Of a DNA stretch of 64,000 bases, positions 51,870-57,814 are shown piece by piece. Made by a program: the position numbers and the translations under genes. The number at the start of each line of letters is the position of its first letter. The first letter of the stretch is position 1. Source of the stretch: Chloroflexota bacterium (GTDB taxonomy: Bacteria > Chloroflexota > UBA11872 > VXOZ01); the NCBI GenBank assembly GCA_958295775.1, contig CATQHC010000009.1:496001-560000 (forward strand), given 5' to 3'. Below the pieces are notes generated by a model, which worked only from the letters and a program-made list of their open reading frames with translations, had not been told where the DNA came from and made no database searches.

Positions 51870-52035
51870 CGCACCGAAGCACCCGGAATTGGGTGGATCT
51901 CGCGAATCAGTGAACGCTTGAGCCCAATTGGCAATTAGCGCGGAGCTTATGCCCTGCCTCTTGACGCAAGCAGGAAACACAGTCTCGGGCCAAGCGCCTA
52001 GGCTCCAGTTCCCAGACGATTGCGGAGGTACGTCT

Positions 52036-52827
52036 GTGATAATCGATGCCCACTGCTACCTCGGCCATAACCCCATCTGGGAAGCCCAGGGCATGCCTGC
52101 CACCATGCACGGCAAGGACATGGTTGCGTACATGGACCGGGGCGGCGTGGAGCGGGCGCTGTGCGCGCCGCCCGGCGTGGGCGCCGCCGACGATTTTGCC
52201 GCCGACCACGAGCGCATCGCGCAGGCAATCGCCGACTATCCCGACCGCATCTACGGCTTTGTACGCGTCAAGCCGCCGCGCGGCCGGCAAGCCATCGACG
52301 AGATGCACTATTGGCTGCAGGAGCGCGGCTTCCACGCCGTGAAATTCAACACAATCGATGCTTCCACCTACGGCGCAGGCACCTACACGCTCGCCGACCG
52401 CGCGCTGATGGGGCCGGTCTTGGAAGCAATCGCGGCGCTTGAGGTTCCGGTCATGATCCACACGGGCGAGGAGCATGGCCACACGTGCACGCCGGCGCTG
52501 GTGGCCGATCTCGCCCTCGACTTTCCCGACATTACCTTCATTATCGCCCACGCGGGCGTGCCGGGATTTCTCCCGGAAGTTATCCCCTTCATGCGCAGAG
52601 CTGAGAATACGCTCGTCGACCTCGCCGGCGTACTCCGTCCCATCTTTGTGCAGAACCTCGTGGACGCCATTGGCGCCGAGCGCGTGCTCAACGCCACCAA
52701 CGCCCCGCATATGCCCATCGAATTCGGCCCCCAACTCATCCAGCGCCACTGCCGCAAGCTCACTGCCGCGCAACAAGAGGCCATTCTATGGGGGAATGCC
52801 ACGAGTCTGCTCAGCATAGCTACGTAG
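52036..52827 (+). CDS. Amidohydrolase-2-like protein with altered metal motifs
   Basis: A 263-residue TIM-barrel protein similar to amidohydrolase-2 / decarboxylase-type enzymes. The start is a GTG at 52036 with GGAGG 7 bases upstream, not the ATG 36 codons earlier. Motif 1, normally DxHxH, reads DAHCY, so the second His is replaced. VMIHTGEEHGH and FIIAHAGVPG keep later histidines. The final Asp (usually in a GSDxP motif) reads ATNAPHMP. With these changes activity as a metal-dependent hydrolase is doubtful. Its end overlaps the convergent SNF2 gene by 8 bases. Substrate not assigned. Confidence 0.78.
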   Translation: MIIDAHCYLGHNPIWEAQGMPATMHGKDMVAYMDRGGVERALCAPPGVGAADDFAADHERIAQAIADYPDRIYGFVRVKPPRGRQAIDEMHYWLQERGFHAVKFNTIDASTYGAGTYTLADRALMGPVLEAIAALEVPVMIHTGEEHGHTCTPALVADLALDFPDITFIIAHAGVPGFLPEVIPFMRRAENTLVDLAGVLRPIFVQNLVDAIGAERVLNATNAPHMPIEFGPQLIQRHCRKLTAAQQEAILWGNATSLLSIAT

Positions 52828-55375
52828 GCGGATACCGCTCCAGAAGGTAAAGAAGGCGTTTATCGTCTACAAGTTCTACGCGGCTGTCCCGGAACTCTTG
52901 CCAAGCACTCTTTGAAAACGTCCCGTTCGTCACGACAACTGCGTTCGTGGCGTCCGGTTTACTGCCAAGCACACCCGCAAGCTGACGTACAACTGGTACA
53001 CCAACGACACTTTCACTCTCGGTATGCTTGCACTGGATAAGACGCTTCTCCCGAGCCCCGATTGCCTGTCGCTCTGCGACAACGTCTACGCCTCCGTCAC
53101 GACTATCGCGTGTCTTGTCTGCCCGATAGCCCATTGCCTGATAGAGCCGCGCAACAAGCTCTTCAAACTCAGACGGACTAAGCTCCCGCAGTCGTTGCTT
53201 GTCCCAAGGACCCGACCATCGGGGTGCGCGCGACGCACCCAGTCCCTCGTCAGCTCTATGAGAGTGACCCAAACGCGATCCGTCATTCCCGCTTTCGCGG
53301 GAATCCATCTTCTCTTGGCGAGCGCGCTGTTCCGGCAACGGCAGGCCCATTACCTCAAGCAAGTCTTCTAGTGTGAGCTTTTCTTCAACCTCGCTCTGGG
53401 CTTCACTAGGGTCCTCTACATACGCCTTGAAAAGCGCTTCCTTACCTTGAAGATTCTCGTAGATGCCCTCCTCGACCGTGTCTATAGTGAAGAGAGACGT
53501 ATTGAAGACTGTTTTCCCCTGGCCAATGCGCAACACTCGTCCCAACGCCTGCTTGTGCGTCGCTGGGTTCCACCAGTGATCAAACAGAATGACATGGTTC
53601 GCTTTCTGCAGATTCAAGCCCACGCCTCCCGCTTTCAGACCCATCAACAGCACTCGGAAGCTAGAATCGTCCTCAAAGGTCTTCAGTAATTCTTCGCGCC
53701 GCCCGGTGCCCAGCTTGCCATCATAGATATCCAACATCTGGAAGTCACGCTCCAGTCCTTCTTTGAGAGAAGGCAAAGAGACCCCTGGGTACTGCGAAAA
53801 GATCAGGATTTTATCTTCGGGCGCAATTTCACGGAGGTGCTCTGTCAGGTAATCGGCCTTTGCGCTGCTGCCTGTCTCCGGGTCGAAATTGCAGAGTTGT
53901 TTGAGCTTTTGAAACCGCGCAAAGACATGCACCTTCGTCACGTTCTCTCCCAAGTCGCGTATCTCCTCCTGCGCTTCATTGAGCGCAGCATTATAGGCAA
54001 CGCGCTGCTCCGGCGTAAGCCTCAACCATCGCTCTTCTTCAACCACTGGCGGGAGATCAAGCACATCTTCCTGTCGCCGCCGCAGCATGAGAGGCCGCAT
54101 GAGTTCCTCCCTTTCTTCAGGTGAGCGCCATTCCCATAGCGCAAGTGCATCAATGCATCTCTTTACGTGTGCTGCCACTGTGGCGTCTACGGCAACAAGT
54201 TTCAGTATGCTCGCAAGGTCATCCGGTTTGTTTTCCAAGGGTGTTGCCGTCAGCGCCCAACAGCGTCTACGCGGTAGGCCTCGCACCGCCCGCGTTACCC
54301 TTGCGTTGGGATTCTTGACCTTGGCGGCTTCATCCAGAATCACGAGCTCGAATTCCGCCAGTTGCTGCACTTTCGGCAAGTCTTCTCGTAGCGTCTCGTA
54401 CGACACAACCCAGACGTGCGCTGGCACTTCCCACTGTTGCGCCCGCTGTTCCTTGGTGCCGTCAACCACCTGAACCCGCACTTCGCGCTGCGCCCATAGA
54501 TCCCATTCTCGCTGCCAGTTTATGAGCACAGACTTCGGCGCTACCGTCAAGATGCGGATCACACTTGCCTTCCTAAGCAAGACACGGGCCGCCACAATCG
54601 CCTGCGCCGTCTTGCCTAGACCCATTTCGTCCGCCAGCAACGCGCCGCGCCGTTCTACAAGGAATTCAATGCCTTGAACTTGATAAGGCACAAGCTTCTT
54701 ACCGTCGGGAAACGGGAATACGCTCGTAAAGGTCTTTGGGTCAAGTGGCGGCTGCAAATAGAGCCACAAGAGTTCAAGCACATCCGCGATCGAGACGCCC
54801 TTTTCCTTTGTCGGCGGCTTCTTCTGCTTTGCGGTGCGCTCGCGGCGGCAGGTTTCGCAAGAACCGCGCGGCAAGCCATGCTTGCATGCAGTGGCAGCAG
54901 CACTCCCCAGCGACGGCAGTAAGGAGGGTTGCTCGGAAGCAGCGTCGTCAGCAGCGGTTCGCCCTACGATTCTCACGTTCTTGCCGAGCAAGTCAATCAT
55001 ATCGTGTACAGCAGGAAAGGGCATTGTCGTGACAGACTGAAGCAATGCCAGCGCGTCGAAGACCTCCACGTCCGCCTCTATGCCGACCTCCATAGACAGT
55101 ACACTCGGCGCGTCAATATGCGCAGGCACCACGTAGGTGCTCACTGCCGCCAAAGCGAGATCATCGCTGCAGTGAGGCTCCGCCAGCATTGGAACATCTA
55201 CTGCCTCCGACGAAAGCGGCACAAACTTCTGCAACGTGTGATGAGGGAAAACCTTGTGGATTTCGTTCAAAGCACGAGGCGTAAGTCCGGTGTCAAGCCG
55301 GTCAACCTCAAGCAACTGCGGCAGTGAAAACGGCGCTGCCCGTTTTGCGGCATTGAGGCGAAGTTCTCCCAACAT
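52820..55375 (-). CDS. SNF2-family helicase fused to an Mrr-like nuclease domain
   Basis: An 851-residue protein. The N-terminal region (1-230) carries CKHGLPRGSCETC (about 162-175), a probable zinc motif. A SWI2/SNF2 motor follows: Walker A DEMGLGKTAQ near 252, DEAAKVKN near 347, LTATPLENK, and the second lobe ending in DHWWNPATHKQALGRVLRIGQ. The C-terminal 120 residues start SPSEFEELVARLYQAMGY and carry GGVDVVA and IQCKH (about 760 and 780), the PD-(D/E)XK pattern of Mrr-type restriction nucleases. [12 protein letters not shown] near residue 690 comes from a family A palindrome inserted in frame between the two parts. It is the second gene of a two-gene operon, 14 bases after the 182-residue gene. 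Probably acts on DNA, possibly in defence. Confidence 0.87.
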   Translation of the reverse strand: MLGELRLNAAKRAAPFSLPQLLEVDRLDTGLTPRALNEIHKVFPHHTLQKFVPLSSEAVDVPMLAEPHCSDDLALAAVSTYVVPAHIDAPSVLSMEVGIEADVEVFDALALLQSVTTMPFPAVHDMIDLLGKNVRIVGRTAADDAASEQPSLLPSLGSAAATACKHGLPRGSCETCRRERTAKQKKPPTKEKGVSIADVLELLWLYLQPPLDPKTFTSVFPFPDGKKLVPYQVQGIEFLVERRGALLADEMGLGKTAQAIVAARVLLRKASVIRILTVAPKSVLINWQREWDLWAQREVRVQVVDGTKEQRAQQWEVPAHVWVVSYETLREDLPKVQQLAEFELVILDEAAKVKNPNARVTRAVRGLPRRRCWALTATPLENKPDDLASILKLVAVDATVAAHVKRCIDALALWEWRSPEEREELMRPLMLRRRQEDVLDLPPVVEEERWLRLTPEQRVAYNAALNEAQEEIRDLGENVTKVHVFARFQKLKQLCNFDPETGSSAKADYLTEHLREIAPEDKILIFSQYPGVSLPSLKEGLERDFQMLDIYDGKLGTGRREELLKTFEDDSSFRVLLMGLKAGGVGLNLQKANHVILFDHWWNPATHKQALGRVLRIGQGKTVFNTSLFTIDTVEEGIYENLQGKEALFKAYVEDPSEAQSEVEEKLTLEDLLEVMGLPLPEQRARQEKMDSRESGNDGSRLGHSHRADEGLGASRAPRWSGPWDKQRLRELSPSEFEELVARLYQAMGYRADKTRDSRDGGVDVVAERQAIGAREKRLIQCKHTESESVVGVPVVRQLAGVLGSKPDATNAVVVTNGTFSKSAWQEFRDSRVELVDDKRLLYLLERYPPT
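53280..53316. repeat. Dispersed palindrome, family A, inside the SNF2-Mrr gene
   Basis: Identical over 37 bases to the copy at 6821-6857, including flanks. It sits at the boundary between the helicase and nuclease parts of the gene and keeps the frame. Confidence 0.88.
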
Positions 55376-55389
55376 GGCAAATCTCCCAG

Positions 55390-55938
55390 TTAGCGAAAGC
55401 GTTCGTCCTCTATTTGGAGCACGCTCACCGCCTTCTCAATCCGCTCAAACGGCTCAAAGAGGTCAATGCTATCGGCTATATGACGAAAAAGCTCTTCTGC
55501 TTCACGAATGTCATCCTTGTATTGAGGATCGGCCTCTAGTGAAACGGGTTGGGTTCGTTTCGACTCTACGGTAACGCCGGACGAGTCGCTACCGACCGAT
55601 AGAGTTTCACCGACTCGACGCAGAAAGATGACAGGCCAGTTTGCCGCATCCCGCAGCCCTACGAGAAAGGGTTTGTCGACTAAGAGAATCTCCGGTTTCA
55701 CTTCAACCTTATCTAGAAGCGGTCTCCCGATTATGTCAATCCCCACGTGGGGCTCAAGTGAAGCTCCGTAGATCACTCTCTGCACTTGCGAGATTCTCAC
55801 CGGTGCCGTTACGCGAAATTCCTGCGGCACGCCCCGTTCATCCGTAATGAGTACCGCCCCCAAACGCCCTCCTTCTTGGTTGATAGCAAGCAGTGTGAGG
55901 AATCCTATTGCCAGCGCTTGCCCATTCCCGTCAGCCAT
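55390..55938 (-). CDS. Uncharacterised partner of the SNF2-Mrr protein
   Basis: A 182-residue protein with no domain I recognise. The first 110 residues are predicted beta-rich (ALAIGFLTLLAINQEGGRLG, APVRISQVQRVIYGASL, GRPLLDKVEVKPEILLVDK). The last 50 are acidic and helical (YKDDIREAEELFRHIADSID). AAGGAG lies 7 bases before the ATG. It is 14 bases upstream of the SNF2-Mrr start, which has its own ribosome-binding site, so both are made from one transcript. A helper or regulator of the helicase-nuclease is inferred from this coupling only. Confidence 0.72.
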   Translation of the reverse strand: MADGNGQALAIGFLTLLAINQEGGRLGAVLITDERGVPQEFRVTAPVRISQVQRVIYGASLEPHVGIDIIGRPLLDKVEVKPEILLVDKPFLVGLRDAANWPVIFLRRVGETLSVGSDSSGVTVESKRTQPVSLEADPQYKDDIREAEELFRHIADSIDLFEPFERIEKAVSVLQIEDERFR

Positions 55939-55966
55939 CAGTATTCTCCTTGTAGACGCAAACTGC

Positions 55967-55979
55967 TACCGTAACGGTA
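55967..55979. promoter_or_regulatory. Palindromic site TACCGTAACGGTA upstream of the SNF2-Mrr operon
   Basis: A 13-base palindrome (TACCGT, central A, ACGGTA) 29 bases before the ATG at 55938. It lies between a possible TACATT -10 element (55984-55979) and the ribosome-binding site, where a repressor would block transcription. No regulator has been identified. Confidence 0.4.
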
Positions 55980-56130
55980 ATGTATTCAGTGACTGGCAAG
56001 CAAGAACGCACATATGCTCGCTAGCGAGTCTTGCCAACCGTTGAGTCCGCAGCGTAGCGTAAAGATTGATTTCGGCTTTCGCCGGCATGACGGCCTAGCT
56101 GCTGTCTATCTTCATAGCAACAACGTGGTG

Positions 56131-56160
56131 GGCGCAGGTTGCAAACCTGCGCTACCGGAG
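56131..56160. repeat. Dispersed palindrome, family C
   Basis: GGCGCAGGTTGCAAACCTGC then GCTACC; core identical to 25891-25920. It lies upstream of the FAD oxidoreductase gene. Confidence 0.78.
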
Positions 56161-56227
56161 CAAACCACCTAAAACCCACTTTCATGGTAATGACGGATTT
56201 GTCAGGACGTTTGTAGGAGAGCCAGCC

Positions 56228-57814
56228 ATGACTTCTTCGTATGACGCCATCATCATCGGCGCGGGCCACAACGGACTCGTCACGGCCGGCTACCTGGCGC
56301 GCGCCGGTTGGAAGGTGCTGGTGTTGGAACGCCGACCCGTCGTCGGCGGGGCCTGTGTGACCGAGGCGGTATTCCCCGGCTATCGCGTCTCCACCGCTTC
56401 CTACCTGGTAAGCCTGCTCCAGGAAAAAGTGGTGCGCGAACTGGAGCTACCTCGTTATGGTTATAAGGTGTTCCCTAAGGATCCCGCGTACTTTGCGCCT
56501 TATCCCGACGGCCGCCACATGTTCATGTACCAAGACATGGCGCGCACCTGCCGGGAGATTGCCAAATTCTCAGCCCAAGATGCCGAGCGCTATCCCAACT
56601 ACGAGACGTACATCGAGCGCATCGCGAAACTCATCGAACCGCTCTTGCTGCAGCCGCCGCCCCAGTTCCCGCCCCAACGGCTCAACGACTGGCTCGACCC
56701 GCTGCGCGCGGGACGTACGCTGTTAGGTCTCTCTCCGAAACAGTTGGCGGATGCCGTCAAACTCATGACGCGCAGCGTACAGGCTATTCTGGACGAGTGG
56801 TTCGAATCCGACGCTCTCAAAGTCGCCCTTGCCACCGACGGCGTGATCGGCACGAACGGCGGGCCCCGCACACCGGGCACCGCCTATGTACTTCTGCATC
56901 ACGTCATGGGCGGCGTCGGCGGGGTGCGCGGCCTTTGGGGTTTTGTCGAGGGCGGCATGGGCGCGATCACCCAGGCGCTCGCGGCCTCGGCGCAAGCCCA
57001 CGGTGCGCAGATCCTCACAGACGCGCCGGTGGCCAAAGTGCGCACGCGCAACGACAGCGCCACAGGCGTGGTGCTCGCCGACGGGTCCGAATACGCGGGT
57101 AAAGTTGTCATTTCGAACGCCGACCCCAAGCGCACCTTCCTGAATCTCGTCGAGCGGAGCGCCCTGCCGGAGGAGTTCGTTGCGCAGATCGAGTCCTACC
57201 AGTGTGAAGGGTCGTCATTCAAGCTCAACCTCGCCCTGGGCGAGTTGCCGGACTATTCAGCCTTTCCCGGCACAACCCTCGGACCGCAACATAAAGGCAC
57301 GACCCATATCTGCCCCACCATGGAGTATCTGGAGCGGGCGTGGGACGATGCCAAATTTGGCAAGCCATCTGAACGACCACTGCTGGAGATCACCATTCCA
57401 ACCGCGTATGATTCCTCGCTCGCGCCCGCCGGCAAACACACAATGGGTGTTTTCGTGCAGTACGCGCCGTACACGCTGAGGGACAGCACGTGGCCGGAGG
57501 AGAAAGAGAGCTTTATTCGACGCATCATCGATACCCTTGCAGAATATGCGCCCAATCTGCCTGGCGTCATCGAGCACGTGCACGCCCTCTCTCCGCTGGA
57601 CCTGGAGCAGGAATACGGGCTCACCGGCGGCAACATATTCCACGGCGAGCTCAGTCTCGACCAACTCTTCTTCATGCGGCCCGTGCTGGGTTGGGCGCGT
57701 TACGCCACACCGGTCCGCAACCTCTATCTCTGCGGCTCCGGCACCCATCCCGGCGGCGGCGTTACCGGCGCTCCCGGTCACAACGCGGCCATGGAGCTAC
57801 TGCGAAAGCAGTAA
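56228..57814 (+). CDS. FAD-dependent oxidoreductase, phytoene desaturase-like (PYROXD2 type)
   Basis: A 528-residue flavoprotein. The dinucleotide-binding start is IIIGAGHNGLVTAGYLARAG with VLVLERR, then GGACVTEAVFPGYRVSTASY. The second FAD motif region near the C-terminus reads NLYLCGSGTHPGGGVTGAPGHNAAMEL, as in carotenoid-desaturase-like and PYROXD2 proteins. A substrate cannot be named; carotenoid genes are not nearby. There is no signal peptide. The ATG at 56228 has GGAGAG about 6 bases upstream. Confidence 0.88.
   Translation: MTSSYDAIIIGAGHNGLVTAGYLARAGWKVLVLERRPVVGGACVTEAVFPGYRVSTASYLVSLLQEKVVRELELPRYGYKVFPKDPAYFAPYPDGRHMFMYQDMARTCREIAKFSAQDAERYPNYETYIERIAKLIEPLLLQPPPQFPPQRLNDWLDPLRAGRTLLGLSPKQLADAVKLMTRSVQAILDEWFESDALKVALATDGVIGTNGGPRTPGTAYVLLHHVMGGVGGVRGLWGFVEGGMGAITQALAASAQAHGAQILTDAPVAKVRTRNDSATGVVLADGSEYAGKVVISNADPKRTFLNLVERSALPEEFVAQIESYQCEGSSFKLNLALGELPDYSAFPGTTLGPQHKGTTHICPTMEYLERAWDDAKFGKPSERPLLEITIPTAYDSSLAPAGKHTMGVFVQYAPYTLRDSTWPEEKESFIRRIIDTLAEYAPNLPGVIEHVHALSPLDLEQEYGLTGGNIFHGELSLDQLFFMRPVLGWARYATPVRNLYLCGSGTHPGGGVTGAPGHNAAMELLRKQ

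Follow-up and report, generated by a model that had tools for sequence, protein, structure and literature searches.

What does a gene for a protein of 182 residues do directly in front of a gene for a helicase-nuclease? The question is raised by a locus in a 64,000-nucleotide stretch of a Chloroflexota genome (contig CATQHC010000009.1, positions 496,001 to 560,000; the whole stretch is here called the window, and its genome G000), where a gene for an uncharacterised protein, P0002, precedes one for a SNF2 motor fused to an Mrr-like nuclease, P0001. We find that the small gene and the SNF2 gene are a real and mobile pair in many Chloroflexota, and consider it fairly likely that together they form a helicase-effector module of two genes, probably for defence, with the small protein serving the motor as a near-obligate subunit. 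The pair and its parts lie at the following window positions:

55390..55938, minus strand: small partner protein P0002, 182 residues, of an uncatalogued family
55376..55389, minus strand: 14-nucleotide junction between the stop of the small gene and the start of the SNF2 gene
52820..55375, minus strand: SNF2-Mrr fusion protein P0001, 851 residues
54848..54886, minus strand: C-x-H-G-L-x4-C-x2-C motif of P0001 (residues 164-176), a possible zinc knuckle
53522..54685, minus strand: SNF2 N- and C-terminal helicase lobes (residues 231-618), with motor motifs present
52841..53191, minus strand: Mrr_cat PD-(D/E)xK nuclease domain (residues 729-845), with D764 and Q781-C-K783

A preliminary description of this DNA had proposed a SNF2 motor fused to an Mrr-like nuclease, and the profiles bear this out: Pfam places SNF2 (PF00176) at residues 231-496 of P0001 (E 2.9e-42), Helicase_C (PF00271) at 506-618 and an intact, C-terminal Mrr_cat domain (PF04471) at 729-845 (E 1.9e-29), with the motor motif DEMGLGKT at residues 249-256 and a D-QxK nuclease signature made up of GGVD (761-764) and QCK (781-783). 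The closest solved relative of the motor is a Sulfolobus SNF2/Rad54-family helicase (1z63). The Cys-rich N-terminal motif that had also been pointed out is real; it reads CKHGLPRGSCETC at residues 164-176, recurs in G004, a genome of the same genus, and in the distant two-gene SNF2-Mrr protein of G453 (CIHGLKKNSCSIC), was seen in none of the other loci checked, and may be a zinc-binding contact to DNA or to a partner. G000 also encodes a second, separate protein with an Mrr domain (L002, C3:133699-133977; E 2e-6, in a 312-residue frame).

The coupling of the two genes was correctly given as 14 bases, and there is a good Shine-Dalgarno sequence. P0002 was rightly called uncharacterised, as Pfam, NCBIfam, PADLOC, PHROG and the sequences of the PDB yielded no match to it, and a PDB profile search with its family returned chance-level matches only. 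When its exact peptide patterns were scanned over the genome contigs the sole match was the G004 copy, and the nearest named relative record (JAPPLM010000016.1) holds a small protein 90% identical to it. No relatives were found in plasmids, phages or viral contigs by tblastn or peptide-pattern searches with a few member queries. Both genes of the pair are under purifying selection, the ratio of nonsynonymous to synonymous substitution rates (dN/dS) of the small gene being 0.24 between G000 and G004.

Profile searches, restricted to Chloroflexota, covered more than 700 genomes in two draws, of 400 and 393, that overlap in part. A small-gene profile of six members identified 12 loci in 11 of the 400 genomes, of which six had not been among the profile members, and the second draw gave 18 genomes with the small gene, 16 of them new, bringing the total to 28 loci in 27 genomes. 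One other match, in G246, was set aside as a weak chance hit, since it falls within a histidine-kinase frame. The position of SNF2 can be assessed at 27 of the 28 loci (at the last, in G073, a contig end hides the downstream gene, and the SNF2 gene of that genome is found terminally on a different contig): SNF2 directly follows the small gene at 23, shares its reading frame at three and is absent at one. The small gene is thus upstream of or fused to SNF2 at 26 of the 27 informative loci, the window included. Where the two share one frame (G438, G586 and G645) the small part is at the N-terminal end of the motor, and the fusion arose at least twice, since in the SNF2 tree the fused G438 protein lies beside the unfused one of G470 and apart from those of G586 and G645. 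G645 holds two nearly identical SNF2 copies in tandem (L071 6193-7725 and 8067-10175), one fused to the small domain and the other not.

Seen from the side of the motor, an SNF2 profile run on 201 genomes found nine loci scoring from about 480 bits upwards, every one of them in a small-gene genome, and a next score of 382 bits from general SNF2s, a gap that is partly there by construction as the families were found with profiles of their own first members. The same profile gave 21 loci at E <= 1e-125 in the 393-genome set, four of them without the small gene. The preliminary description had left it to be seen whether the small gene has homologues and whether the SNF2-Mrr fusion usually lacks it; it has the 28 loci given above, and it is present at all ten SNF2-Mrr loci found (G000, G004, G050, G142, G327, G337, G413, G421, G453 and G465), the Mrr part being split off in G004 and G465 by a contig break or frame change.

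Two gene arrangements are seen among these loci. The two-gene form, consisting of the small gene and SNF2 only, occurs in the window and in G004, G050, G009 (one of two copies), G453, G464, G707, G536 and G546. Most relatives instead have five genes, in the order gene A (about 270 residues), BrxD-like 1, BrxD-like 2, small gene and SNF2 (L031, L032, L047-L052, L070-L078 and L085-L088), and their proteins as a set fit no PADLOC system. A Walker A motif is present in BrxD-like 2 (5 of 6 aligned members) and absent from BrxD-like 1 (0 of 7). The SNF2 tree contains a two-gene clade (support 96/93), to which the window protein belongs, and a five-gene clade (100/99), and six further SNF2s fall outside both. 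Compared as separate profiles, the small proteins of two-gene and five-gene loci are homologous (hhalign E 5e-8, probability 95%). No homology was detected among the small protein, the N-terminal region of SNF2 and gene A of the five-gene operon.

What varies between loci is the C-terminal end of the motor. At the 26 loci with both genes it carries Mrr in ten cases, another domain of 150 residues in two, and no nuclease domain in 14. The 150-residue domain ends the SNF2 proteins of G464 and G707 (L081 4271-4732 and L082 4746-5207), which are 59% identical there and share a conserved HDR motif. It is possibly a new nuclease-type domain, putatively phospholipase-D-like (PLD-like), though the match to the MIT_C phospholipase-D-like profile is below threshold and comes from one member only (12.7 bits against a cut-off of 25, E 0.12). 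Retention of the small gene at the 14 loci without a nuclease domain indicates that the small protein goes with the motor and not with the nuclease. Of the earlier view that it is the partner of a helicase-nuclease, then, the part concerning the helicase stands, as the gene travels with the motor, but the part concerning the nuclease does not.

These 14 loci are also the main argument against a toxin-antitoxin-like pair, in which the small protein would be an antitoxin restraining the Mrr nuclease and its loss would lead to abortive infection. Such an arrangement would account for the order of the genes, as a small first gene coupled at 14 nucleotides is typical of toxin-antitoxin pairs, and for the mobile insertion of the pair. 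However, it does not fit with a small gene beside or fused to SNF2 where there is no nuclease to restrain, with the three genomes in which it is fused to the N-terminus of the motor, or with three five-gene operons that have SNF2 but no small gene, and we regard it as distinctly unlikely. Fixed gene order, near-invariant co-occurrence, the three fusions, retention without the nuclease and the varying C-terminal domain all point to the small protein being a subunit of the motor. From these patterns we consider it highly probable that the small protein and SNF2 act as one complex. Within it the small protein would most likely gate or target the motor, rather than being an antitoxin or a passenger in the operon.

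The second part of the question is what the module is for. The inserted segment, its flanks and two palindromes lie at the following positions:

52828..56227, no strand: inserted segment, absent in G001, G002 and G003
51928..52827, plus strand: left flank, an amidohydrolase-like gene convergent with the SNF2 gene
56228..57814, plus strand: right flank, a phytoene-desaturase-like flavin adenine dinucleotide (FAD) oxidoreductase
55967..55979, no strand: palindrome TACCGTAACGGTA, altered in G004
53282..53306, minus strand: palindromic repeat of the repetitive extragenic palindrome (REP) type within the motor-nuclease linker of P0001, translated

Three genus-mates (G001, G002 and G003) have an empty site, with the amidohydrolase and FAD-oxidoreductase genes directly adjacent. 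The fourth, G004, has the pair at the identical site in decayed form: the frame is broken near residue 300, and the contig breaks off within the linker repeat (end of L010, start of L035), where unrelated sequence with inverted ends GTGTTGCACTT/AAGTGCAACAC begins, which suggests an inserted element. Synonymous divergence (dS) is 0.22 for the small gene and about 0.5 for parts of the SNF2 gene, compared to 0.8-1.1 for the flanks, which is consistent with a more recent exchange of the segment. The dN/dS of the pair (0.13-0.36) also exceeds that of secA, rpoB and the FAD oxidoreductase (0.05-0.08). In G001 a Type II restriction enzyme and methyltransferase (L061 7302-9904) lie between secA and the amidohydrolase gene, less than 1 kb from the empty site and within the same secA-rpoB interval as the pair of the window, and the interval is a possible site of defence insertion in the genus. 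Similar neighbours are found elsewhere: the pair is bordered by Type I restriction-modification genes in G050 and G707 and by a DNA methyltransferase and an SMC-like ATPase in G453, and in G327 it is followed by Azaca ZacA/ZacB. Around the remaining loci, inspected by eye, no obvious defence genes were seen.

The patchy presence, the empty sites, the decayed copy, the variable C-terminal domains and the restriction-modification neighbours at some loci fit, if indirectly, with a defence role of the pair, which we hold to be somewhat more probable than not. A housekeeping SNF2 translocase like RapA or Rad54, working in repair or in transcription recycling with a repair nuclease and the small protein as cofactor, would sit well with the Sulfolobus SNF2/Rad54-family helicase as nearest solved relative and with five-gene neighbourhoods that are mostly not obvious defence islands. 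Yet one would not expect of it a distribution so patchy that 11 of the 400 genomes and 18 of the 393 have the small gene, clean empty sites in three close genus-mates with decay in a fourth, a C-terminal domain that changes, or a dN/dS several-fold above that of the flanking housekeeping genes, and we judge it unlikely.

Two palindromes in the segment deserve comment. The first, TACCGTAACGGTA, had been suggested as a place where a repressor could bind. The palindrome exists, but it is not conserved: both arms differ in G004 while the flanking bases and the ribosome-binding site are unchanged, so that a role as operator is unsupported. The second, GGATTCCCGC-N4-GCGGGAATGAC, is of the REP type, with 27 exact copies in the genome and 80 with up to two mismatches (reversed control, 0), and since it lies inside the reading frame, part of the P0001 linker is a translated repeat. 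On the way from the pair to the FAD-oxidoreductase gene, at window 56133-56151, lies an inverted repeat, CGCAGGTT-N3-AACCTGCG, that resembles a dispersed repeat. A search of window 49-60 kb against Rfam gave no matches.

The preliminary description did not recognise the pair as a named system, and it is indeed uncatalogued in the four family libraries searched. The alternative that it is a degenerate fragment of BREX, Zorya, DISARM or Hma/BR draws on the best PADLOC match of P0001, which is ZorD (E 1.6e-68), with DpdE and DrmD ranking lower, and on the BrxD-like proteins of the five-gene relatives. ZorD of Type I Zorya likewise has an SNF2-type motor and an Mrr-like nuclease domain (PMC11890865, and similarly the PADLOC description). 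However, these best matches lie mainly over the generic SNF2 core, and all NCBIfam system-level cut-offs are missed widely (for ZorD, NF041790, 146 bits against 1500; for DrmD of DISARM, NF038317 and NF038318, 72-73 bits against 610 and 950). The N-terminus of P0001 differs from that of ZorD, the Zorya models have no counterpart of the small partner, and the neighbourhood of the pair, read from its flanking genes (secA, amidohydrolase, FAD oxidoreductase and rpoB), contains no zorA or zorB.

A similar picture emerges for the other systems. HmaA, or Type-1 BR, is an SNF2-family helicase with an active C-terminal PD-(D/E)xK nuclease and reported antiphage activity (PMC12839542), and so resembles P0001 in domain content, but its profile match is weak (E 2.5e-19, PADLOC), and neither the DUF499 ATPase nor the N6-methyltransferase of Type-1 BR systems adjoins the pair among the flanking genes of the window. 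The five-gene relatives combine BrxD-like proteins with a superfamily 2 (SF2) helicase, as does the BrxD-BrxHI dyad of Type-2 BREX, where BrxD is proposed to act with BrxHI as the loader of the helicase (PMC12839542); there, however, the helicase is Ski2-like rather than SNF2, the BrxD matches reach 38-71 bits against a cut-off of 350, and the two-gene form of the window has no BrxD. No PF08665 or PF10923 match, and hence no PglZ or BrxC/BrxD, was found in the genome of the window, and PglZ (PF08665) is absent from 7 of 10 five-gene genomes and 11 of all 14 genomes tested. Matches of the five-gene BrxD-like proteins to SngB of Shango are weak, and no Sng model is among the best 25 of the 50 PADLOC matches of P0001 or matches P0002. 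Given in addition that the two-gene clade has its own history in the SNF2 tree, it appears very improbable that the pair is a fragment of one of these systems. Hachiman (HamAB) is a two-component system whose helicase is the sensor or motor controlling a nuclease (PMC12278908), and its likeness to the pair is one of working principle only: its small protein is the nuclease and its helicase is Ski2-like, whereas P0001 combines helicase and nuclease in one protein and P0002 matches no nuclease.

Several observations weigh against the reading of the pair as a defensive module with the small protein as motor subunit. Motif II of P0001 is DEAA, where relatives usually have DEAQ, and the nearest relative, in G004, is decayed, so that activity of the window copy is only predicted. 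A recognisable small gene is missing from the five-gene operons of G557, G685 and G609, which keep the rest of the operon, and from one tandem SNF2 copy of G645, and it is therefore not strictly essential there; none of these four SNF2s has a nuclease domain. Conversely, G723 has the small gene without SNF2. Most five-gene loci lie among ordinary metabolic genes, as judged by eye, so that the association with defence islands is partial, and to this must be added the partly constructed SNF2 score gap described above. AlphaFold2 models of the small protein and the SNF2 N-terminus from two-sequence alignments were uninformative, with predicted local distance difference test (pLDDT) values of 29 and 34.

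If the pair is nevertheless such a module, the SNF2 protein, as a double-stranded DNA translocase, would move along foreign DNA and deliver the Mrr nuclease, which would cut it, and the small protein would bind the motor and control its loading or its response to the foreign DNA. In the five-gene relatives the roles of loader and adaptor would fall to the BrxD-like AAA+ protein and its paralogue without a Walker motif, and by analogy with BrxD and BrxHI this AAA+ pair may load the motor. The two-gene form would work without BrxD-like proteins, as no BrxC/BrxD homologue was detected in the genome of the window.

An SNF2-fused nuclease from Halomonas reportedly gave antiphage defence, in a study cited by PMC11890865, and the helicase-nuclease combination in defence is thus already established; of the small partner and the gene arrangements we found no description in the literature. 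We tentatively propose, as a possibility that falls somewhat short of an even chance, an undescribed anti-invader family built around an SNF2 motor and a small protein, not recognised before, that licenses the motor on foreign DNA, in a two-gene form (with an Mrr, a PLD-like or no effector) and a five-gene form (with two BrxD-type AAA+ proteins, one active and one inactive). Helicase-nucleases recur in phage defence, often without a clear picture of what targets the motor and turns it on. The family separates three parts that vary independently, namely the small partner, the motor and the effector, and it adds an uncatalogued small-protein family that marks such loci in the genomes examined. 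With a minimal two-gene version and a five-gene version equipped with candidate loaders, it would provide a tractable case for the role of a small partner on an SNF2 motor, and the five-gene version lets one ask whether BrxD-type AAA+ proteins are helicase loaders.

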